NCBI GenBank assembly: GCA_017454855.1
Contig: JAFTCE010000019.1
Span: 1 to 45,879, forward strand
DNA length: 45,879 bases
DNA from: Desulfovibrio sp.
Lineage (GTDB): Bacteria; Desulfobacterota; Desulfovibrionia; Desulfovibrionales; Desulfovibrionaceae
Reading direction: 5' to 3'
Shown here: positions 33-36,686 of the stretch, one piece after another
How positions within the stretch are numbered: position 1 is the first letter of the stretch
How the letters are laid out: the number at the start of each line of letters is the position of its first letter
The notes under the pieces: generated by a model
Database searches by the model: none
What the model saw: only the letters and a program-made list of their open reading frames with translations
What the model was told of the DNA's origin: nothing
Position numbers and translations under genes: made by a program

Positions 33-426
33 CCCGCAAAGGGGTTCTCCGGGCCTGGAGGTTGTGACATACGCCCATTTTTCCACATGATATACAGGTT
101 TAACGCCCGCAAAGGGGTTCTCCGGGCCTGGAGGTTGTGACTAGCTATACATCCTTCAATAAATTGACCAAAATTCACCCGCAAAGGGGTTCTCCGGGCC
201 TGGAGGTTGTGACTGCCGATATGGTCATAGCTGTTACGTTCATAAATCCCGCAAAGGGGTTCTCCGGGCCTGGAGGTTGTGACTCAAATTCGTGAAGAGC
301 AATCGAATGCTCTTCCAGCTCCCGCAAAGGGGTTCTCCGGGCCTGGAGGTTGTGACGAGACCACCCAGCCACTCAAGAACTTCGCCCCGTGCCACAAAGG
401 TGTTCTCCATGCCTGGAGGTTGTGAC
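33..426 (+). CRISPR. CRISPR array, leader-distal end
   Basis: Six direct 36-bp repeats start at 33, 106, 178, 248, 321 and 391. The first five are identical (begin CCCGCAAAGG, end GGAGGTTGTGAC). The sixth has five mismatches, as is usual for the terminal repeat, so the leader should lie to the left, outside the window. Spacers are 37, 36, 34, 37 and 34 nt and more AT-rich than the repeats. Bases 1-32 look like part of a further spacer, so the array continues off the left edge. The repeat holds a short CTCC/GGAG stem. No cas gene is in the window, so the type cannot be assigned. The spacer at 284-320 contains an 8-bp inverted repeat. Confidence 0.96.
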
Positions 427-486
427 AGAAAATGCGCCGAGGGCAACGGTGAAGAGAGACGACATGCGGAATGACGGACTGGAGCC

Positions 487-3582: not shown

Positions 3583-5925
3583 TCAGCAGAAGTTGAAAGG
3601 AATGATGCGGCGGGCCAGCCCGCTGTCCCCGGGGGATGCATCCTGGAGCTGCCGCACGATGGCCTGAGCATCTGGCATACGTTCCGCCAATGTGTGCAGC
3701 ATGTTCTGCACAGCAGGTTTGCCTGGATTCAGCTGGCCCATGCTGATGGCAATGGCCAGGACAATGAGTTCTACTGTGGGCATGTTGTCCTTGCCACGGG
3801 CATAGTCCAGGCTGTTCGCCAACTCCCGGCGCAGGGCGTCATCGTCTCTATCGGTCATCAGCCAGCGAAAATACTGGATTTGCGGCCAGGGATGACCGGG
3901 CAGCACCCCTTTTTCCGGTTCTGTCCATAAAAAGGCGCGCTGCTCATAGGCCGTCTTTTCCTCTTCCGTGCCCATCCAGGCGAGATAGCGGGCCAGCAGA
4001 TAGTGCGGATACGGACTGTCTTCCAAGGGCTTGCGGCCAAAATGGTGCGCCGCATCCAGCACGGGCATGCCCAGGGCCGTTTCCACCGTCCGGCGGACGT
4101 GCGCGGTGTCCGCATCCGGCATGTCCATGCAGGCCACGGCAAGGTACGTGGCTGTCTGCTGCCGTTGGCGTTTGGCTTCTTCGGGGTCTGCTTCTTCAAG
4201 GACGGCAAAACGCTCCAAGGCTTCTTCAAAAAGCCGCACGGCGTCTGTCGGGTCATTCTGGAAGGCGCGAAACTGCCCCAGACTGCTCAGGATTTTTCCA
4301 TCCCACAGCGCGCTGCCGGTCAAACGACCGCCCACAGCCGGATTCCAGGCATCGAGCCGTGCCTGGCTGCGGGCAAAGGCGAAGGCATTGCTGTCCGCCA
4401 CGGCCAGACGCAGGGCCACATGTAGGCTTGCGGTCATATCCAGGCTGGCCATCTTCGGCGTCAGTCGCTCCAGGGCCTGCACGGTATTGTGCAACGCGTC
4501 GCTGTCCACATCACCCAAATGGTTGAGCCGGGCCAATTCCGCACAGTGCCAGTAAAATTCCGCCGCCAAACCCGGCGCGCTCATAGGGCGCAGCCAAACG
4601 CTCATCCGCTCCAGGACGTCGTGCCTGTACTTCTTACTGGCCAGATAGTCCTGCATGGCCTGTGCGTAGGTTTTCCACAGGCCAGGCTGGGCATGGCAGC
4701 GCTGCTGCAGTCGGGCAAGCGCATGTTCCAGCAGCGAGCCTTTGCGGGCCTTCTCCTGCATGAGTCCGATCCAGGCCGCGCCGTCGGGCGTTTTGCCCGT
4801 GAAAATGTCTTCGAGGGTTTTCAGCCTGCTGGCAGGGCAGTGTATAAGGCAGCTCTCCGCAAGCCCGCTCTTGCGAAATACCTTGAAGTCAACACCTTTC
4901 TGCCGCCCCCAAAGGTAGGCCACGATGTCCGCCCAGGCCAGCATGGGAGCCGTCTTGTCTTCAAAGGTGAACTGGAGGATGCGCATCTGCGCTGCGCGCT
5001 TTGGATCTTCCCCCGTCATCTCGGCCTGGAGGTTTTTTGCGCTGAGCAGCGTTGTGAGCTTTCCGCTGTACACACCCCGCTGCTCCACATGAACATGCAG
5101 ACCAGTGCCTTCAGTCGACAGGGGCAGCAGCCGCCAGACCCATTTGACCAAATCGCGAATGGCCTGCAGCCAACCGTCTTCACCCTGGATGTCAAGCGCT
5201 GGGCAAGTAAAGCCCAACACGCCGCAGTCGCTTTGCAGCAAGGTATTGCAATGCTCAAGGATTTGTCTAGGAGAAGATTCCGTGGCGTGGAAGGAACCCG
5301 GATTCCCAAGCGGGGAACCCTCTGGCACGGCCACGGCAACTACACGCCCCATCTTGCCTTCCTCGAGAGCGCTGAAGCTCTCCCCGTTTTCATCGATGTA
5401 CACATGCCAGACCGGGGCTACCTGCCTGGTCCAGAGCGTATGTACGGTATGCTGGACGATGTCCACAGGCTGCGTGCCACGCTCGTCCATATCTTCGGGT
5501 ATCTGCACCGAATGAACGGAGATGCCATACAGCTTGCGGGCCTGCTGCAAATGCGCTTCCGCAGCCTTGCGTCCGGAGTTTTTTGCTATATCCTGTACTT
5601 CCTTCCCCAGCGTCCGGGAAATTTGTTTGGCTATCCATGACGGCACGTTCAAGGGCTTGCCAGGAACAGTCTGCCAGTAGACTTTCATTTCCGCACTCAA
5701 GAGGCCATGACGCATGGCTTGGGACAATGCGTTCTTTTCCTTGTAGCGTTGACGGCCTTCGCTCTTCGCCTTGTCCAGCCGCTTTTGCCATTTCTGCGCC
5801 TTGCCCGTCAACAGGGCAAAATCGCTTTCCAAGGCAGAGGAATCCTTACCATCGGCCAGGGCAAACTTGATTTGCTCCAGCAAGGCTTCTGCGCTTTCCT
5901 GTAAACTGTTCTCTTTTTTCTGCAT
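3583..5925 (-). CDS. DUF3800-like (RNase H-fold) protein with helical-repeat C-terminus
   Basis: The start at 5925 is chosen for its AAGGAGG site; the frame is open further upstream. The product is 780 aa. Residues 1-70 are charged and probably coiled coil. Residues about 172-345 resemble DUF3800: VYIDENGE (Asp178, Glu179) at the start and WADIVAYLWG (Asp333) at the end, the two acidic positions expected of that RNase H-like fold. Residues about 380-780 are alpha-helical repeats (TPR/HAT-like). The C-terminal 110 residues share an HPW motif (678-680), an R-L-x-SL pattern and a PFNF tail with the Lon-type protein at 9570-11555, so the two are probably built on a common module. It is divergent to the operon at 6120. 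DUF3800 proteins are often found in defence or mobile loci; activity here is unproven. Confidence 0.8.
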   Translation of the reverse strand: MQKKENSLQESAEALLEQIKFALADGKDSSALESDFALLTGKAQKWQKRLDKAKSEGRQRYKEKNALSQAMRHGLLSAEMKVYWQTVPGKPLNVPSWIAKQISRTLGKEVQDIAKNSGRKAAEAHLQQARKLYGISVHSVQIPEDMDERGTQPVDIVQHTVHTLWTRQVAPVWHVYIDENGESFSALEEGKMGRVVAVAVPEGSPLGNPGSFHATESSPRQILEHCNTLLQSDCGVLGFTCPALDIQGEDGWLQAIRDLVKWVWRLLPLSTEGTGLHVHVEQRGVYSGKLTTLLSAKNLQAEMTGEDPKRAAQMRILQFTFEDKTAPMLAWADIVAYLWGRQKGVDFKVFRKSGLAESCLIHCPASRLKTLEDIFTGKTPDGAAWIGLMQEKARKGSLLEHALARLQQRCHAQPGLWKTYAQAMQDYLASKKYRHDVLERMSVWLRPMSAPGLAAEFYWHCAELARLNHLGDVDSDALHNTVQALERLTPKMASLDMTASLHVALRLAVADSNAFAFARSQARLDAWNPAVGGRLTGSALWDGKILSSLGQFRAFQNDPTDAVRLFEEALERFAVLEEADPEEAKRQRQQTATYLAVACMDMPDADTAHVRRTVETALGMPVLDAAHHFGRKPLEDSPYPHYLLARYLAWMGTEEEKTAYEQRAFLWTEPEKGVLPGHPWPQIQYFRWLMTDRDDDALRRELANSLDYARGKDNMPTVELIVLAIAISMGQLNPGKPAVQNMLHTLAERMPDAQAIVRQLQDASPGDSGLARRIIPFNFC

Positions 5926-6476: not shown

Positions 6477-6603
6477 CCGGACGCTGGCAGCGCGACCCAC
6501 CGTTACCCTGGGTCGCGTTGCACAGAGGGGCCTTGCTTTTTGGGGTTGGAATGGCTACACAATTTCCGTGCAGTTTTGCCCCCAGCCTGCCACGGAGACA
6601 ACC

Positions 6604-7161
6604 ATGCCCAAAGCTCGCCCCGCCGCCCCGGTATCGACTGCCGCCCAGAATACCGCCGCCATACGGAAACCGCGTAACCACCAGCGCAACCAGGCCCGCC
6701 AATCTCTTCTGGATGCCGTCTTGCAGCCGGGAACCATCCAAGCCAGCGCCAAAAGTCCCCAAGATCCGTCGCCCTTTCTCGTCCTTTACGCACGCATTCC
6801 CCTGCAATACTGGGCCTGCGGCTGGCTGTTCAAGGCCATTGACGACATTTTGTGGCGATCCATCACCAGTGAGGCCAGGGATACGTTTCCGGCCACGCTG
6901 CGCGAGGATCACACAACGCATCCTGGCTATGTGCTGCGCGACATCGGCAACTACGGTGTGGAACTCTGTCCCCTGACAAGCCGTCCGAAACCCGGCCAGC
7001 GCATTCCAGCGGGCACGCGCCTGCAGCCCACAGGCTTTGTCCTGGAAAAAGACAGCTACCCTGTCTTCCGCGCAGCCACCGTCCTGCCACGCAAGAACGG
7101 CATTTTCCCCAAACTGCCCCAATTTCTCGGCATCTTTCCGCCCCATGAGCTGGAAGCATAA
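6604..7161 (+). CDS. Unknown protein in Lon/sigma operon (185 aa)
   Basis: The start at 6604 has GGAGA 6 nt upstream. Residues 1-60 of the 185-aa product are Ala/Pro/Gln-rich and probably disordered. Residues about 64-185 look globular, with aromatic-rich strands (LVLYARIPLQYWACGW, later GYVLRDIGNYGVELCPL), basic turns, and the hydrophobic end PQFLGIFPPHELEA. No domain is recognised. It ends 9 nt before the sigma-like gene, so it is cotranscribed. It could be a partner or substrate within the system. Confidence 0.7.
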   Translation: MPKARPAAPVSTAAQNTAAIRKPRNHQRNQARQSLLDAVLQPGTIQASAKSPQDPSPFLVLYARIPLQYWACGWLFKAIDDILWRSITSEARDTFPATLREDHTTHPGYVLRDIGNYGVELCPLTSRPKPGQRIPAGTRLQPTGFVLEKDSYPVFRAATVLPRKNGIFPKLPQFLGIFPPHELEA

Positions 7162-7170
7162 GGCACTCGC

Positions 7171-8337
7171 ATGAAGATCAATATTGATGCCCTGTTCTCC
7201 AACGACACGCAACGCAAGCACTTGAGCGAGCTGTTCGCCCTGATCTTGAAACAAGAATTCCGTGGTAGGCACAAAGCCCAGCTTGTGGCCTACATGGCCG
7301 AGGATATGGGCGAGCGCGGCAGCATATCCGCACAGCAATGGGCAGAGACGCTGCAAGCAGGCGTCAATGAATGTTGGGCCATTTTGTACGCCCTGCCTGA
7401 CGCCGTCAGCGCCAGTCTGGAAGAAGCCCTGGACGATCTGACCCAGGGCGCATGCGGCCCTGAGGAACTGGCGCAACGCTGCTGCCAGGCCGTAGTGACA
7501 TGCTTCGTGGACATGGTCAGCGAACAGATGCGCGACAGGGACTATGCGGGCCTGCGTCAGGCCATTGCCCGCAAAAAAGATGCCGACCGTCCGCTCTTTT
7601 ACACCCGTTTTTACAGAGGCTTGGGCACATGCTTTTCCCCACAGCCCGTGGAAGAAACAGTGCCGCAACTGGCAAACGCAGACATCACGACCCCACCGAC
7701 TGGCCTGGGCGTTGCCGATGCGGCCATTCGTAAGCAGCGCACGGTGGCTGCGCCCGGGGGCAGCAACCGCCAAATGGTCTGGGATACCAACGTCGTGGCG
7801 CGGGAAGCGCAACGCTTCTGGCAGGCATTTGTGGATGAGCGCTATGACGGCGTGCCGGGCTATGTGCCCATCTTCGCCATGTATTGCTGGCTCTGCCGGG
7901 ACTATGCGCTGGGTTCCGTGCCCGTGCTGCATTTCTGCGCACATGTTGCAGCGGACGACGATACCCGGGATACAGGCACTTTAGAGCGCTGTCTGACAAC
8001 CGACGACATTGCGGTGGAGGATGCCGCAGCCCAAGCCGAAATTCTGCTTCTGGCCGAGCATTTCGCCAACGACCTTGCGGACACTGAGGCCATGTTCTGC
8101 GCCTGGGGTTTTGAACCCGGGGTCAGCATGGAACGTCTGGCCCATGCCCTGGGTCTGGCCGGGCCCAGTTCCCTCAGCCGCCACAAAAACCGACTCGTGA
8201 CGCGCCTGCGGGAACGCGCCACGCAATTGGATGATGTCGCCTGTGCGGCCTTTTTTGTCTCCGCCGTACAGGAAGCGTGTAAAAAACGCTGTCCGGCCCC
8301 GACAGAAGTGGCGGAGGTACTCCATGAACAGCACTGA
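7171..8337 (+). CDS. Sigma-factor-like / HTH regulatory protein
   Basis: The 388-aa product has, at about residues 300-350, an arrangement close to sigma-70 region 4: a helix ending LADTEAMFCAW, then VSMERLAHALGLAGPSSLSR and a basic RLVTRLRERA helix. Residues about 205-260 (REAQRFWQAF onward) may correspond to a region-2-like helical part, but the core-binding motif is not clear. Residues 1-200 are helical and unassigned. The stop overlaps the start of the next gene by 14 nt, and that next gene encodes an HCC zinc-finger protein, as with sigma/anti-sigma pairs. An ordinary HTH regulator is the alternative. Confidence 0.7.
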   Translation: MKINIDALFSNDTQRKHLSELFALILKQEFRGRHKAQLVAYMAEDMGERGSISAQQWAETLQAGVNECWAILYALPDAVSASLEEALDDLTQGACGPEELAQRCCQAVVTCFVDMVSEQMRDRDYAGLRQAIARKKDADRPLFYTRFYRGLGTCFSPQPVEETVPQLANADITTPPTGLGVADAAIRKQRTVAAPGGSNRQMVWDTNVVAREAQRFWQAFVDERYDGVPGYVPIFAMYCWLCRDYALGSVPVLHFCAHVAADDDTRDTGTLERCLTTDDIAVEDAAAQAEILLLAEHFANDLADTEAMFCAWGFEPGVSMERLAHALGLAGPSSLSRHKNRLVTRLRERATQLDDVACAAFFVSAVQEACKKRCPAPTEVAEVLHEQH

Positions 8338-9583
8338 TACGTTACGCCGCCATGCCTGGCGTCGCATGTTTTTGTTGCGCACCTGTCCGCCCCTAGGAGT
8401 TCTGGCCAGGGGGGGGGCGCAGGTGGATCGGCATCTCGCCGTCTGTTCCGTTTGCCGCGACACCCTGCGACATGCCCAAACCTTTGCCGATGTGGGCAAG
8501 CTGCTGGCCGACATGCCCCTGCCACGGCGTACGCCCACACCTCCCACTCCAGGAGAACTGCGCCGGGTGCGGCCCCTGGGCGGCCCGGAAACATGGTTTG
8601 ACGCCGAGGGACGCTACCACAATCCCCCGCTCGTGCTGGTGCTGGATGCCCCTGACGACTACGGCTTCGTGCGCGTAGCCCAGATTTTCCACGAGCAAGA
8701 CTTGCGCGACCAGGGGGACATCCCCCTGGATGCGGGCCAGCAGGGCTTTGCCGAGGCATGGAATGTCTATGGCCTGCCAAAGTCCGGCCTTGCCGACGTG
8801 GCCTTCCGCAAGGTCAGCCCTGAACACGCCAGCCGTGTCCTCGCGGCTGCTGCACAAAATTTTCCGGCCCTGGATCCGTCCCAGGCCCTCTTCCATTTCC
8901 GCAGCTCCGAGCTGGAGACAGGGGCGTTTTTCAGTCTGCCTCTGAATGCCGCAGCCCTGGCCAGCCAGGAAGCCGCAGAGCAGGAAGACGCGCTCCCAGG
9001 CCGCATCCTGGCGCACGGCGCCCATGTCCTGCGCACGGTACTTAGGCAGGCTGCGCCGTCCCGGCACTCGCCCGTCGATTTCGGCATGGCGGCATTGATG
9101 GCGCATGCCCCCGAGAAGCGCGCCGGAACCAGCAGCGTCTTGGATCAATTGCGCTCCAAGCTTCAGGACTATGTCCGCGCATGGTCTGGGCAGATCGCCC
9201 CCCTGGCTGCTGCTGCGGCAAGCAGGGAAGACTTCGCCCCCGACAGCGAAGCCGACAAGACGCTGCGCCTGCCTTGCCTCATTGTCACAGCCACAGGCGA
9301 ACGCCAGCCCTGGACAGTGTCGGCCAAGGTCGACGTACATTTCCTGGATCAGGGCTTCTTTTGCCAGGCATGGTGTCGTATACCAGGGTTGTCGTCTGGG
9401 CAGGTCTTGGCGGCGGTGACCTGTGGCGCTGCGCAGGCTCAAGAGGAATACGTGGAACGACCAGAAATGGACGTCGTCTGCCTCAAGGCCAGGTTTTCAG
9501 ACAAAAACCTCAGGCCAGAGCAGCTCCAATGCACCATTCTGCTCACCGACCTCCCTGCGGAACACACAGATGGTGGATTTTGA
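8324..9583 (+). CDS. Zinc-finger anti-sigma-like protein with possible MazF-like domain
   Basis: The start at 8324 follows GGAGG and overlaps the sigma-like gene by 14 nt. Residues 1-60 of the 419-aa product hold Cys21 and the HLAVCSVC box (His37, Cys41, Cys44), the zinc-binding pattern of zf-HC2 anti-sigma factors. Residues about 77-175 resemble a MazF/PemK-type barrel: NPPLVLVLDA, later GDIPL, then VYGLPKSGLADVAFRKV and SRVL; this is a weaker call. The rest is unassigned. A run of nine G (8409-8417) sits inside the zinc-finger coding part and could slip. The next gene overlaps by 14 nt. Role inferred: holds the sigma-like protein until cleaved or released. Confidence 0.65.
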   Translation: MNSTDTLRRHAWRRMFLLRTCPPLGVLARGGAQVDRHLAVCSVCRDTLRHAQTFADVGKLLADMPLPRRTPTPPTPGELRRVRPLGGPETWFDAEGRYHNPPLVLVLDAPDDYGFVRVAQIFHEQDLRDQGDIPLDAGQQGFAEAWNVYGLPKSGLADVAFRKVSPEHASRVLAAAAQNFPALDPSQALFHFRSSELETGAFFSLPLNAAALASQEAAEQEDALPGRILAHGAHVLRTVLRQAAPSRHSPVDFGMAALMAHAPEKRAGTSSVLDQLRSKLQDYVRAWSGQIAPLAAAAASREDFAPDSEADKTLRLPCLIVTATGERQPWTVSAKVDVHFLDQGFFCQAWCRIPGLSSGQVLAAVTCGAAQAQEEYVERPEMDVVCLKARFSDKNLRPEQLQCTILLTDLPAEHTDGGF

Positions 9584-11555
9584 AGACTGCTGCCGCATGC
9601 GCTGGGAAAAGTATTTCCCGGCGACAAGCATCAGACCGCCCAGGCACATGCCCGACGCTTGCGAGGCGAACGGCGCACGCGTCCTGCTTGCGCACTGGCT
9701 GCTGAAGCTGGAGACCGCGCAACGCACCCCGGCCTTCGTGCGTACCCTACCTGGCGTACGCCTTGACGATGCCACGGCCTGGACCGAAGTCCCCCTGCTT
9801 CTGGAGGTCGGGAACGCGGGCCGGATTTTTCCGGTTCTGCTGGGCCTTCTGCCCTGCACGGAAATCCGCGTGGAAGCAGGATGGCTCAGCCTGAGCGCCG
9901 AAGATGCCGCCAGGGCCGCCCTGACACTCGCCGGCCACGGAGAAAAGGGCTTCGTCCTCCTGCCTCGCGCATCCCCGCCGGGCGCGAGGCCCATCGATGG
10001 CGCATCCCTCGCGCTTCCCCTGGCCGCTGCAGGCCGCCGACTCGTCCAGGGTCGGCCACTGCCCTGGCAGATCATGATGACGGGCGCGCTTGCCCCGGAC
10101 GGCACTGTGTTGGCTGTGGACGCCGTGTCCGCCAAATACGACGCCTTTCGTCGCCGTTGCCACATGCAGGACGGCAGGGCCTTCTTCTATCCCCTTGCCA
10201 ACAATGCCCTGGACAGGCCGGACGCCTGCGCCGTGACCAGCCTGGACGCCACTCTGGCCCTGTGCGCCCTGTGCGACGCCCACGGTGCCGGGCTACTGCA
10301 AAACTTGGCATCCTGGCGTTGGACACCGCAGTATTTTTTCACCTGGCTTACCGATGACACCTTTGCACCAGACTTGCTGCATCCGCTGCTCGACCTTGCC
10401 GAACGCGAACACTGGCACTTTTCCGGCGGTGCAGCGCTGTCCGAGGCCGTACACCGCCTCTATGCCTGGCGCGCCAGGCAGGGCCGTCTTGACCACCTTG
10501 AGCGCTTGCTACGCTTGTTTCCGTCTGCAGATCAAGCCCTTGGCCTGGACAATCTGGCACTGCTGCGCCTGGCCTCCATGCACGCAACCCTGGAAAGCCA
10601 CGCCGGCAGAGTGGATGGCCCCTGGCAGGGCATTCTTGCACATTGCCTCCAGAGCATGGGCAACGACAATCCTGAAACCGCCGCAGAACTGCTCTTGGCC
10701 GAACTGCGGCTGGCCAATGTCGCGTACAATGCCTACAACTTCCACATGCCCATTTCCCCTGCCTGGCTGGAACATGTGCAGGCCCGCAGGAGCTATTGCG
10801 CACGCTTTTCTGAGGACGCTACCCTGGGCAAAGCCTACGGTTTTTTGACGCAACGCGCGGCCTTTGTCGGCCAGTGGAAGCAAGCCCTGGAGTACGCCCA
10901 GACCTCACTGCGCTTTTTCGGCGCCACTGTCTGCGAGAAAAAACGACGCTGGATTGACCGCGTGTACATTTTTTGCGAAATGGGACGTACTGCAGAAGCT
11001 GAACACGAATTGCGCCTTGCCCTGACAGCCAGCCTAGACAGCGCAGCCCTTGCCGCCACGGATCAGCTTGTGCGCACCTACCAGGGCAAAGACGCCGATT
11101 ATGTCCATGCGGCTTTCGTACGCATCTGTCGCCAGTTCCCGCCGCTCTTGGGCAGCTATCCCGTGGCCGACATTCTGGACGGGCAGTGCCAGGATCACCA
11201 TCCCTGGCAATGCTGGTCGCACAACTGCGGACGGCTTCTGGCCAAAGACAATCCAGATCTCGCCCGGCGCTGCCTGCACCGTTCCCTGGCCATCTGCCGC
11301 TGCGATGCCAGGGCAACGACCCTGCTGCCCATGGCATTGCTGCCCCTGGCCGGCCTGATCTTCCTGAACATGGAACCTGCAGCAGACGTTTTGCGCCACA
11401 CCGAAGCCGTCTTACAAGAACTCCACAGCCTCTGCGACCAAGGCCAACTCCACGCAAAGCACTTTCGCCCCGTGCTGGAAGCGGCCACGCCCTTGGCGGC
11501 ACTCCAGATTGTCGAGGACGCGCAATCGCAGCTCTTCCCCTTCAACTATCGCTAA
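9570..11555 (+). CDS. Lon-type (S16) protease domain fused to helical repeats
   Basis: The start at 9570 is chosen because it couples to the previous stop (14-nt overlap) and precedes the conserved body; its ribosome site is weak. In the 661-aa product residues about 125-215 match the Lon proteolytic core without gaps across the active site: DGAS (Ser146), MTG 24-26 residues later (170-172), Gly178, Val-Leu (180-181), and Lys189 exactly 43 residues after the Ser, as in the E. coli Lon Ser679-Lys722 pair. YPLANN follows where Lon has IP-x-EN. There is no AAA+ domain. Residues about 240-661 are helical repeats ending in an HPW motif (544-546) and a PFNYR tail, shared with the DUF3800-like protein. 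Probably an ATP-independent, signal-gated protease; the adjacent zinc-finger protein is the obvious candidate substrate. Confidence 0.8.
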   Translation: MVDFEDCCRMRWEKYFPATSIRPPRHMPDACEANGARVLLAHWLLKLETAQRTPAFVRTLPGVRLDDATAWTEVPLLLEVGNAGRIFPVLLGLLPCTEIRVEAGWLSLSAEDAARAALTLAGHGEKGFVLLPRASPPGARPIDGASLALPLAAAGRRLVQGRPLPWQIMMTGALAPDGTVLAVDAVSAKYDAFRRRCHMQDGRAFFYPLANNALDRPDACAVTSLDATLALCALCDAHGAGLLQNLASWRWTPQYFFTWLTDDTFAPDLLHPLLDLAEREHWHFSGGAALSEAVHRLYAWRARQGRLDHLERLLRLFPSADQALGLDNLALLRLASMHATLESHAGRVDGPWQGILAHCLQSMGNDNPETAAELLLAELRLANVAYNAYNFHMPISPAWLEHVQARRSYCARFSEDATLGKAYGFLTQRAAFVGQWKQALEYAQTSLRFFGATVCEKKRRWIDRVYIFCEMGRTAEAEHELRLALTASLDSAALAATDQLVRTYQGKDADYVHAAFVRICRQFPPLLGSYPVADILDGQCQDHHPWQCWSHNCGRLLAKDNPDLARRCLHRSLAICRCDARATTLLPMALLPLAGLIFLNMEPAADVLRHTEAVLQELHSLCDQGQLHAKHFRPVLEAATPLAALQIVEDAQSQLFPFNYR

Positions 11556-35412: not shown

Positions 35413-35498
35413 ATCCCTGTCCAGACTCACCTCCTTCTGAGGATGTCAAGCTGCCCGCTTTCTGGCTGAACCGAACTCTCCCGTGCAGCGTTGCAGCC

Positions 35499-35527
35499 TT
35501 GCACCCTGGCTGCATTCCCTGTACTGT
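35499..35527 (+). promoter_or_regulatory. Promoter of peptide unit 1
   Basis: TTGCAC (35499-35504), 17-bp spacer, TACTGT (35522-35527). The leader carries AAGGGGG before the ATG at 35595. Confidence 0.75.
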
Positions 35528-35594
35528 GCCCCTTGCGCGGCTACCCTCTGGCCTATGCGTCGGCACGGCGCAAACGGAAAAAGGGGGCACAGCC

Positions 35595-35663
35595 ATGTGG
35601 AAACTTGTTTTTGCCTTGATCGCTGCGGCCTTGGTTCTGTTGCTGGCGACTGACGCCATGTAA
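35595..35663 (+). CDS. Ibs-like hydrophobic peptide, copy 1 (22 aa)
   Basis: The peptide begins MWKLVF and ends LLLATDAM. It has a basic residue near the N-terminus followed by a continuous hydrophobic helix and a short polar end. This matches the size and form of type I toxins of the Ibs class (about 18-20 aa, beginning MMKLVI in E. coli). Ribosome site AAGGGGG lies 8 nt upstream. Conserved frame and conserved ends in three copies with changing middle positions (A/T, I/L, A/V, L/W) support a real peptide. Membrane toxicity is inferred only. Confidence 0.7.
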   Translation: MWKLVFALIAAALVLLLATDAM

Positions 35664-35668
35664 TAGCT

Positions 35669-35699
35669 GACCCCGGCCCATAAGCAGTGGGTCGGGGTC
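35669..35699 (+). terminator. Hairpin A behind peptide 1
   Basis: GACCCCGGCCCA and TGGGTCGGGGTC form a 12-bp stem with one G-T pair and a 7-nt loop. Repeated at 36085-36116 and 36502-36532. The T-rich side is weak (GTTTAAC), so it may be a stability element rather than a full terminator. Confidence 0.6.
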
Positions 35700-35759
35700 G
35701 TTTAACTAACCTTCACTTGAAGTAGCCGTTGCGCAGGGGCGCTCACCGCGTCGTGCCAG

Positions 35760-35801
35760 CCCCGGCACGTTGCTGGCCGCAGCGTGTCAGGGTTCCTTTT
35801 T
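35760..35801 (+). terminator. Hairpin B with T-tract, unit 1
   Basis: CCCCGGCACG pairs with CGTGTCAGGG (one mismatch), followed by TTCCTTTTT. It ends the unit. Confidence 0.75.
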
Positions 35802-35914
35802 GTATAGCCATTTCATTCGGGTTTGGCAAGGGTATCGTTGAGGGCACCAACCAAGGCCAAGCAAATTTTGTATCTGGCCCATCGGTTGTTTGAGGACGTA
35901 TAGAGCATCCCTCC

Positions 35915-35943
35915 TTGCACCCTGGCTGCATTCCCTGTACTAT
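35915..35943 (+). promoter_or_regulatory. Promoter of peptide unit 2
   Basis: TTGCAC (35915-35920), 17-bp spacer, TACTAT (35938-35943). Best of the three. Confidence 0.8.
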
Positions 35944-36010
35944 GCTTCTTGCGCGGCTACCCTCTGGCCTATGCGTCGGCACGGCGCAAACGGAAAAAGG
36001 GGGCACAGCC

Positions 36011-36079
36011 ATGTGGAAACTTGTTTTCACCCTACTCGCTGTGGCCTGGATTCTTTTGCTGGCGACTGATGCCATGTAA
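36011..36079 (+). CDS. Ibs-like hydrophobic peptide, copy 2 (22 aa)
   Basis: Begins MWKLVFT and ends LLLATDAM; Thr7 and Trp13 distinguish it from the other copies. Same ribosome site, same distance to hairpin A. See copy 1 for the reasoning. Confidence 0.7.
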   Translation: MWKLVFTLLAVAWILLLATDAM

Positions 36080-36084
36080 ATAGA

Positions 36085-36116
36085 TGACCCCGGCCCAAAT
36101 GCAGTGGGTCGGGGTC
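36085..36116 (+). terminator. Hairpin A behind peptide 2
   Basis: Same 12-bp stem as at 35669-35699, followed by ATAAAAC. Confidence 0.55.
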
Positions 36117-36173
36117 ATAAAACTGTTCTACATGCAGTAGCCGTTGCGCAGGGGCGCTCACCGCGCCGTGCCA

Positions 36174-36214
36174 GCCCTGGCACGTTGCTACCCGCAGCGT
36201 GTCGGGGTTCCTTT
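36174..36214 (+). terminator. Hairpin B with T-tract, unit 2
   Basis: CCCTGGCACG region pairs with CGTGTCGGGG (G-T pair in place of the unit 1 mismatch), followed by TTCCTTT. Confidence 0.7.
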
Positions 36215-36329
36215 CTGTATAGCCATTTCGCTCGGGTTTGGCAAGGGTATCGTTGAGGGCACCAACCAAGGCCAAGCAAATTTTGTATCTGGCCCATCGG
36301 TTGTTTGAGGACGTATAGAGCATCCCTCC

Positions 36330-36358
36330 TTGCTTCCTGCCTGCATTCCCTGTACTCT
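36330..36358 (+). promoter_or_regulatory. Promoter of peptide unit 3
   Basis: TTGCTT (36330-36335), 17-bp spacer, TACTCT (36353-36358). Weakest of the three. Confidence 0.65.
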
Positions 36359-36426
36359 TCCCCCTGCGCGGCTACCCTCTGGCCTATGCGTCGGCACGGC
36401 GCAAACGGAAAAAGGGGGGCACAGCC

Positions 36427-36495
36427 ATGTGGAAACTTGTTTTCGCCTTACTCGCTGTGGCCTTGGTTCTTTTGCTGGCGACTGATGCCATGTAA
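36427..36495 (+). CDS. Ibs-like hydrophobic peptide, copy 3 (22 aa)
   Basis: Begins MWKLVFA and ends LLLATDAM. The leader has one extra G in the ribosome site (AAGGGGGG) relative to copies 1 and 2, which also joins an upstream ATG frame differently. See copy 1. Confidence 0.7.
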   Translation: MWKLVFALLAVALVLLLATDAM

Positions 36496-36588
36496 ATAGA
36501 TGACCCCGGCCCAAAGGCAGTGGGTCGGGGTCATAAAACTGTTCTACATGCAGTAGCCGTTGCGCAGGGACGCTCACCGCGCCGTGCC

Positions 36589-36634
36589 AACCCCGACACG
36601 CTGCTGGCAGCAACGTGTCGGGGTTCCTTTATAT
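36589..36634 (+). terminator. Hairpin B, unit 3, perfect stem
   Basis: AACCCCGACACG and CGTGTCGGGGTT form a perfect 12-bp stem, followed by CCTTTATATTT. It also faces the convergent ankyrin remnant at 36687. Confidence 0.85.
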
Positions 36635-36686
36635 TTAGCCATTATTTCTTTGGTTGGCAAGAGCAGATTTACGGCGAACCTGTCAC

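Follow-up and report, generated by a model that had tools for sequence, protein, structure and literature searches.

A type III CRISPR-linked operon encoding a TPR-Lon protease, a zinc-box protein and a sigma factor-like protein: a candidate proteolytic cascade in Desulfovibrio and its relatives

Background

Can a protease linked to a clustered regularly interspaced short palindromic repeats (CRISPR) system release a sigma factor without a recognizable sensor for a cyclic messenger? The question is raised by an operon in a 45,879-nucleotide stretch of Desulfovibrio sp. DNA (assembly GCA_017454855.1, contig JAFTCE010000019.1; hereafter the window), which comprises an entire contig (C86) of a genome (G000) split into 174 contigs. 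In the Calp system, cyclic oligoadenylate activates the Lon protease CalpL, the MazF-like CalpT is cut and the extracytoplasmic function (ECF) sigma factor CalpS is freed; to our knowledge, CalpL and Craspase are the only two described routes by which a CRISPR system frees a sigma factor by proteolysis. A preliminary description of the window had likened three overlapping genes, here named B, C and D, to the Calp cascade.

Taken by itself, a protease/anti-sigma/sigma cascade encoded by these genes is, in our estimate, quite probable. For the wider proposal, namely that the cascade is tied to type III CRISPR systems and that in the clade of the window the effector complex would be a likelier trigger than cyclic oligoadenylate, we regard the case as evenly poised. 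What is observed is a set of domains detected by profile, the retention of catalytic residues, a conserved operon order, linkage to CRISPR loci, a failure to find CARF or SAVED domains and the loss of the GGDD motif in Csx11. Throughout, labels in G denote genomes of the class survey, those in L single loci and numbered labels in C contigs.

The operon and the domains of its products

The operon and its features in the window are as follows:

6568..7161, plus strand: gene A, small protein, first in the conserved operon (alternative ATG at 6604)
7171..8337, plus strand: gene B, sigma factor-like protein
8035..8229, plus strand: residues 289-353 of B, matched by profile to sigma region 4
8324..9583, plus strand: gene C, ZAS anti-sigma zinc box with conserved middle and C-terminal parts
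8378..8455, plus strand: zinc box of C, with H-x3-C-x2-C at 8432-8455
9570..11555, plus strand: gene D, Lon protease domain with TPR-like (tetratricopeptide) repeats, ending in LFPFNYR
9780..10259, plus strand: Lon (S16) domain of D, residues ~71-230, with the Ser146 codon at 10005-10007 and the Lys189 codon at 10134-10136
10557..11552, plus strand: TPR-like C-terminal part of D

The overlap of B, C and D is confirmed, with 14 shared bases at each of the two junctions, and 9 bases separate A from B. Three elements are absent from the preliminary description, namely gene A, a divergent gene E and a CRISPR array at 33-434.

A profile of 14 D proteins matches Lon (5e-14) and CalpL (6.2e-6), and the Lon domain of D is homologous to that of CalpL. 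Ser146 is kept in all 14 members and Lys189 in 13 of them (alignment A3), while in a larger alignment (A7) each is found in 16 of 17 rows, the remaining row being a gap. The D of G030 (L011:1824-4133) has its catalytic Lys replaced by L, and its C lies downstream rather than upstream. No AAA+, SAVED or CARF model matches any of the 14 members at E-values up to 1, and TPR models match a few of them (best 0.0015). Of the 31 rows listed, 29 (25 of 27 without duplicates) terminate in FP[FY]x[YF] and one more residue, and the other two stop at contig ends; a related P(F/Y)x(Y/F) plus one residue forms the C-terminus of nearly all complete D and several E proteins, and may be a packing or docking tail. 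When an earlier six-row D profile was run over 348 genomes of the class, long matches came from 15 genomes and G170 contributed a C-terminal fragment, the other listed matches being mainly to the Lon domain only, as expected for housekeeping Lon. Plasmids and phages yielded no match to D, and viral contigs no relative of the window proteins P0003 and P0001.

Gene B encodes a protein with region 4 of the sigma-70 family. Its 16-member family profile matches sigma factors in PDB over this region (FliA, 1.1e-5; an ECF factor, 0.008), and the Pfam model Sigma70_r4 is found in 5 of the 16 members, at best at 9.4e-4 and below the Pfam cut-off wherever one is given. The B protein of the window searched singly gave no sigma match and nothing else convincing. 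No model for sigma region 2 matches any member, and conserved helical-looking blocks are discernible by eye only.

Gene C, whose product has about 420 residues, carries the zinc box of ZAS anti-sigma factors: the H-x3-C-x2-C pattern is present in 17 of 22 members, and the zf-HC2 model matches 4 of the 22 (best 0.0023). Of the five members lacking the box, L083 begins at a contig end and L086 is an open reading frame without its N-terminus. D132, W146, N147, F192 and E196 are invariant among members, and the conserved remainder of C matched no known family in model searches and no PDB chain in a search with the C profile.

These results bear out most of the preliminary description, which had read the first protein as bearing a helix-turn-helix like that of sigma region 4, the second an HCC zinc box of anti-sigma type and the third a Lon-type protease domain with helical repeats and with neither AAA+ nor a SAVED or CARF sensor. 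Its possible MazF-like barrel in C, which we also sought in A, is not supported, there being no match to the PemK model, no PDB match and no profile support. Gene A is conserved and carries a CPC(T/S)S stretch; it has no convincing Pfam or PDB match and matched no toxin family model.

Conservation of the operon and its linkage to CRISPR systems

The survey distinguished 27 loci with D, of which one is the window, 14 come from G genomes and 12 are named loci. Not included are the fragment in G170, another partial D in G050, and L075, L077, L081 and L090, which were counted as duplicates of G055, G049, G068 and G075. They are distributed among Desulfovibrionales, Desulfobacteraceae, Desulfobulbaceae, Geobacteraceae and Geomonas limicola, and the operon order is retained among distant relatives. 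The preliminary description had proposed examining gene neighborhoods for conservation of the trio, and the outcome favors it: C lies near D in 22 of the 27 loci (in G030 behind D, 1.6 kb off), B-C-D are found together in 17 and A also in 11, with some of the misses being contig ends.

At 17 of the 27 loci, D has a CRISPR component (an array, or a gene for a Cas or CARF protein) no more than 10 kb away, a count that used 29 cas reference proteins taken from D loci and the window's genome and therefore favors D loci. No such component was found at any of the 20 control loci of housekeeping lon, 5.7 to 16.5 kb in size (in L136 the script found no lon open reading frame). Models confirmed 18 of the 29 references and failed to confirm one (L015, Card-like), the others being named by eye; no locus was found whose place in the count rests solely on an unconfirmed reference. 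CARF proteins were treated as CRISPR components and are the sole component for G075. The script itself counted 17 of 26; removal of L088, whose arrays, flagged twice by the array finder, are coding repeats and were dropped, gave 16 of 26, and addition of G050, which is split over contigs, gave 17 of 27. The loci without a nearby CRISPR part (G014, G030, G062, G088, G115, L079, L082, L087, L088 and L089) include several short contigs. On the same strand as D, cas6 follows after about 30 (G050), 100 (L083), 160 (L084) or 220 (L080) bases, and it also lies 2.3-2.5 kb behind D in L085 and L086. The CRISPR connection is stronger than the preliminary description supposed, the operon itself often adjoining type III genes. 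Across the class, Cas10 (PF22335 at 1e-8 or better, weaker matches being presumably other GGDEF proteins and not counted) is found in 53 of 348 genomes, comprising 7 of 16 genomes with D and 46 of 332 others (p=0.0049).

The CRISPR system of the window's genome and the loss of GGDD in Csx11

The window carries the following repeats:

33..434, plus strand: CRISPR array, six copies of a 36-nucleotide repeat, the last degenerate; truncated by the contig start
841..956, plus strand: two additional repeat copies, one with an exact core and one degenerate

The 32-base core of this repeat, sought with up to two mismatches, occurs eight times in the genome, always exactly; C86 has six of the occurrences, and the other two lie at the very end of contig C108. 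That end also encodes a RAMP protein (3.7e-10), Csx11 (TIGR02682, 3.3e-57, under the curated cut-off), a Cas6-Cas1 protein (Cas1 7e-35, Cas6 2.3e-5) and Cas2 (1.5e-14), and an AT-rich stretch is seen by eye ahead of the repeats. We infer that C108 and C86 are probably the two ends of one broken array. The Cas6-Cas1 fusion gene lies at L176:13926-16277, and a reverse transcriptase model also matches its relative in L073, with a score under the cut-off.

We take Csx11 to be a marker of subtype III-C. PMC3150331 treats Csx11 as an inactivated Cas10 subfamily, and PMC12669027 describes the cyclase domain of III-C Cas10 as inactivated, such systems therefore being unable to signal through cyclic oligoadenylate. 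At a threshold of 1e-8, Csx11 is found in 10 of 345 genomes (taken to be the same set as in the tail-profile search below), namely in 5 of 16 genomes with D (G000, G014, G030, G115 and G250) and in 5 of 329 others, p=2.4e-5, a value that overstates independence, the five genomes with both being one family, and this weighs against the proposal. The GGDD column is replaced in all seven aligned Csx11 proteins (from the window's genome, G014, G250, G030, L085 and two genomes that lack D, the G115 fragment being left out), while two Cas10 controls retain GGDD; two of the seven have GGE-type pairs elsewhere, and the alignment may be off across such distance. At L085, D, cas6, a RAMP-like gene and Csx11 stand together in one stretch.

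These observations bear on the trigger. PMC12669027 describes the messenger sensors of type III systems as almost exclusively CARF or SAVED proteins. A cyclic-oligoadenylate trigger appears less likely in the clade of the window because D lacks SAVED and CARF and goes with a Csx11 that lacks GGDD. A trigger without a cyclic messenger is preferred there mainly because G014, G030 and G250 (74, 98 and 98% complete) show this Csx11 and no other strong Cas10, with the reservation that the D of G030 is the one without Lys.

Comparison with Calp and Craspase

A CalpL model matched 4 of 395 genomes in the phylum and 9 of 41 in one class, with three common to both. The loci L147-L149 display the order small protein, sigma factor, CalpT, CalpL and cas10 (with one gene before the last in L149); L157, L158, L160 and L161 display its first four genes, and L159 and L162 only part of it. 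Only CalpL was recognized by model, CalpT, CalpS and the small protein being presumed from position. This order matches that of A-B-C-D (small gene, sigma factor, anti-sigma position, Lon protease without AAA+), and both operons are linked to type III systems. They differ in that the CalpL protease bears a SAVED domain where D has a TPR-like part, that C has a ZAS zinc box, and that the partner in the window's clade is Csx11 without GGDD.

Profile alignment of D with nine CalpL proteins gave 3.9e-7 and extended over Lon only, as did the match of the CalpL model to the window's D (0.068). B scored against CalpS above all 51 local nulls, with 1 of 51 global nulls reaching its score; first alignments of the two were out of register (0.0083 and 0.0039). 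A, a possible counterpart of the small protein in CalpL loci, attained a score that 3 local and 4 global nulls, out of 51 each, also reached. Homology of C to CalpT is unsupported: E-values were 0.24 and 0.15, the score was reached by 11 of 51 local nulls and by 39 of 51 global ones, and the added CalpL loci changed nothing. Initial hhalign comparisons, based on three sequences for each of CalpT, CalpS and the small protein, had yielded no usable result, and no CalpL was matched on plasmids. The Calp-like layout and the three roles of the preliminary description are supported; its MazF barrel is not, nor is a common origin of C and CalpT. Since SAVED was sought in 14 D members and is lacking there, the operon is not a member of Calp; it is a variant that, as predicted here, works like Calp.

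Craspase (or CASP) of type III-E offers a second comparison. As outlined in PMC10028731, it consists of the TPR-CHAT protein Csx29, Csx30, Csx31 and CASP-sigma, and is activated by binding of target RNA. On that account, what it has in common with the present operon is the combination of TPR and protease, a sigma inhibitor that is cleaved (by prediction, in the case of C), a sigma factor, a further gene and, as proposed below, the response to target RNA; its protease, however, is CHAT, whereas that of D is Lon (Ser/Lys) with the TPR part behind the protease domain, and it belongs to III-E, whereas the genes near D belong to multi-subunit type III systems. The C profile matched no Csx30-like PDB chain, the presence of Csx30 chains in that PDB copy being unchecked. 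No operon uniting TPR-Lon, ZAS and sigma genes appears in the titles and abstract openings of the papers listed by the literature searches, which leaves room for a mention in a supplementary table.

Gene E and the shared TPR part

Upstream of the operon lies a further TPR gene:

3583..5925, minus strand: gene E, TPR protein, ending in IPFNFC, whose C-terminus holds a TPR part akin to that of D

E is divergent from A-B-C-D, and a DUF1232 gene sits between E and A. The D profile matches the E of L087 over its TPR part (3.5e-15, and 1.6e-16 in a five-sequence search) and a 1107-residue protein adjoining type III genes (3.2e-6). When 18 D tails are aligned with 3 E tails, five columns, HPW among them, are invariant, and the profile of these 21 tails matches 19 of 345 genomes at 1e-5, the E matches arising partly by construction from the E rows in it. 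TPR models match E members (TPR_2, 3.7e-7), and a weak DUF3800-like signal is seen at the N-terminus of one of nine (0.077). Relatives of E adjoin D (L066, L073 and L087) or a type III locus (L117); in G063 the gene adjoins a 49-repeat array together with cas6, RAMP genes and a small Cas10, and in G014 it shares a contig with Csx11, while no cas genes were found on the 3 to 4 kb contigs of L118 and L119. Genes for Prok-E2 and ThiF-JAB proteins (ubiquitin-like conjugation) lie near D and E in L087:1576-3740, and a similar E2-like gene occurs by eye in two copies in L073:7455-10514.

TPR-DUF3800 proteins are described at Cas12a2 loci in PMC10910872, and DUF3800 nucleases at VI-F and V-A2 loci in PMC12669027. 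E likewise combines TPR repeats with a weak DUF3800 signal; it lies instead next to D or at type III loci, and shares a related TPR part with a Lon protease. That such kindred parts occur both on a protease and on a nuclease-like protein hints at an exchangeable plug. Elsewhere in the window, direct repeats recur every ~415 bp at 35497-36643, with copies 64 to 94% alike.

Proposed mechanism and its alternatives

At rest, the zinc box of C would hold the sigma factor B away from RNA polymerase. Once a type III complex encounters its target RNA, the signal may be taken up by the TPR part of D, upon which the Lon Ser/Lys protease of D would be switched on and C cut, freeing B for transcription of response genes. 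The trigger in the window's clade would probably be contact with the effector complex rather than cyclic oligoadenylate; E, with its related TPR part, could constitute a second, parallel effector arm, and A may assist. In its most specific form, which we offer tentatively and at less than even confidence, TPR-Lon would be an RNA-guided protease that docks on type III complexes, including messenger-less ones with Csx11, and cuts a zinc-box anti-sigma factor to give a transcriptional output. It would then be an independently built Craspase-like device, with a single type of TPR plug serving the protease D and the nuclease-like arm E.

Several observations weigh against this proposal. No exact overlap joins the ends of C108 and C86. 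Several D loci go with a GGDD-bearing Cas10, and at the end of C1 the window's genome itself carries another type III locus, with Cas6 and a Cas10 that has GGDD, which leaves some probability to a messenger. D occurs with Csm, Cmr and Csx11 complexes alike, which is unexpected for tight docking, and its profile has no match to the window's own E or to the E of L066 and L073 (that of L073 being truncated). Cas10 at 1e-10 or better is present in only 5 of 12 named D genomes (L076, L078, L086, L087 and L088).

The alternative that survives best, although we deem it unlikely, is a Calp variant still triggered by cyclic oligoadenylate, in which the TPR part, A or an unrecognized partner binds the messenger and activates Lon. 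It would agree with the identity of the four-gene order to that of CalpL loci, with the B-CalpS scores against nulls and with the spread of D over several type III subtypes, as for messenger-driven effectors. It is also in keeping with the D loci that have a GGDD-bearing Cas10 (G044, G049, G050 and L086); TIGR02221 CARF proteins occur near D in L012, L016, L070 and L071, and in G075 a gene for a fusion of CARF (Cas_NE0113) with adenosine deaminase begins 11 bases behind D (L065:5241-7124). What this alternative has to overcome is the absence of CARF and SAVED from the 14 D members searched, and the three genomes G014, G030 and G250 with a Csx11 replaced in the GGDD column and no other strong Cas10.

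Rather improbable is a general stress module of sigma factor, ZAS anti-sigma factor and dedicated protease that travels in defense islands, with a non-CRISPR trigger and an incidental neighborhood. The 17 of 27 D loci near CRISPR parts, as against none of the 20 controls, speak against it, as does the run of D into cas6 in several of them. Its support, which also counts against the proposal favored here, comes from G062 and Geomonas limicola (L079), which carry B-C-D and in which no Cas1 and no above-cut-off Cas10 was found; in G062 (L072; one contig, 99% complete) a MotA/ExbB-HEAT gene lies near B-C-D, and lipoprotein-like genes are seen by eye nearby there and in G088. Finally, it is very improbable that C is itself the effector, with A and C acting once D releases them and the sigma factor merely regulating the operon, since no toxin family matches A or C, although C exceeds in length what a zinc box needs, its middle and C-terminal parts are conserved, and so is A with its CPC(T/S)S stretch.

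Implications

Should a type III-linked cascade triggered by the effector complex be correct, it would be a third arrangement for the release of a sigma factor by a CRISPR system through proteolysis, and one without a recognizable messenger sensor. The bearers belong to several families of what we take to be sulfate- and metal-reducing bacteria. The TPR-Lon/sigma module would supply III-C systems with a signaling output.

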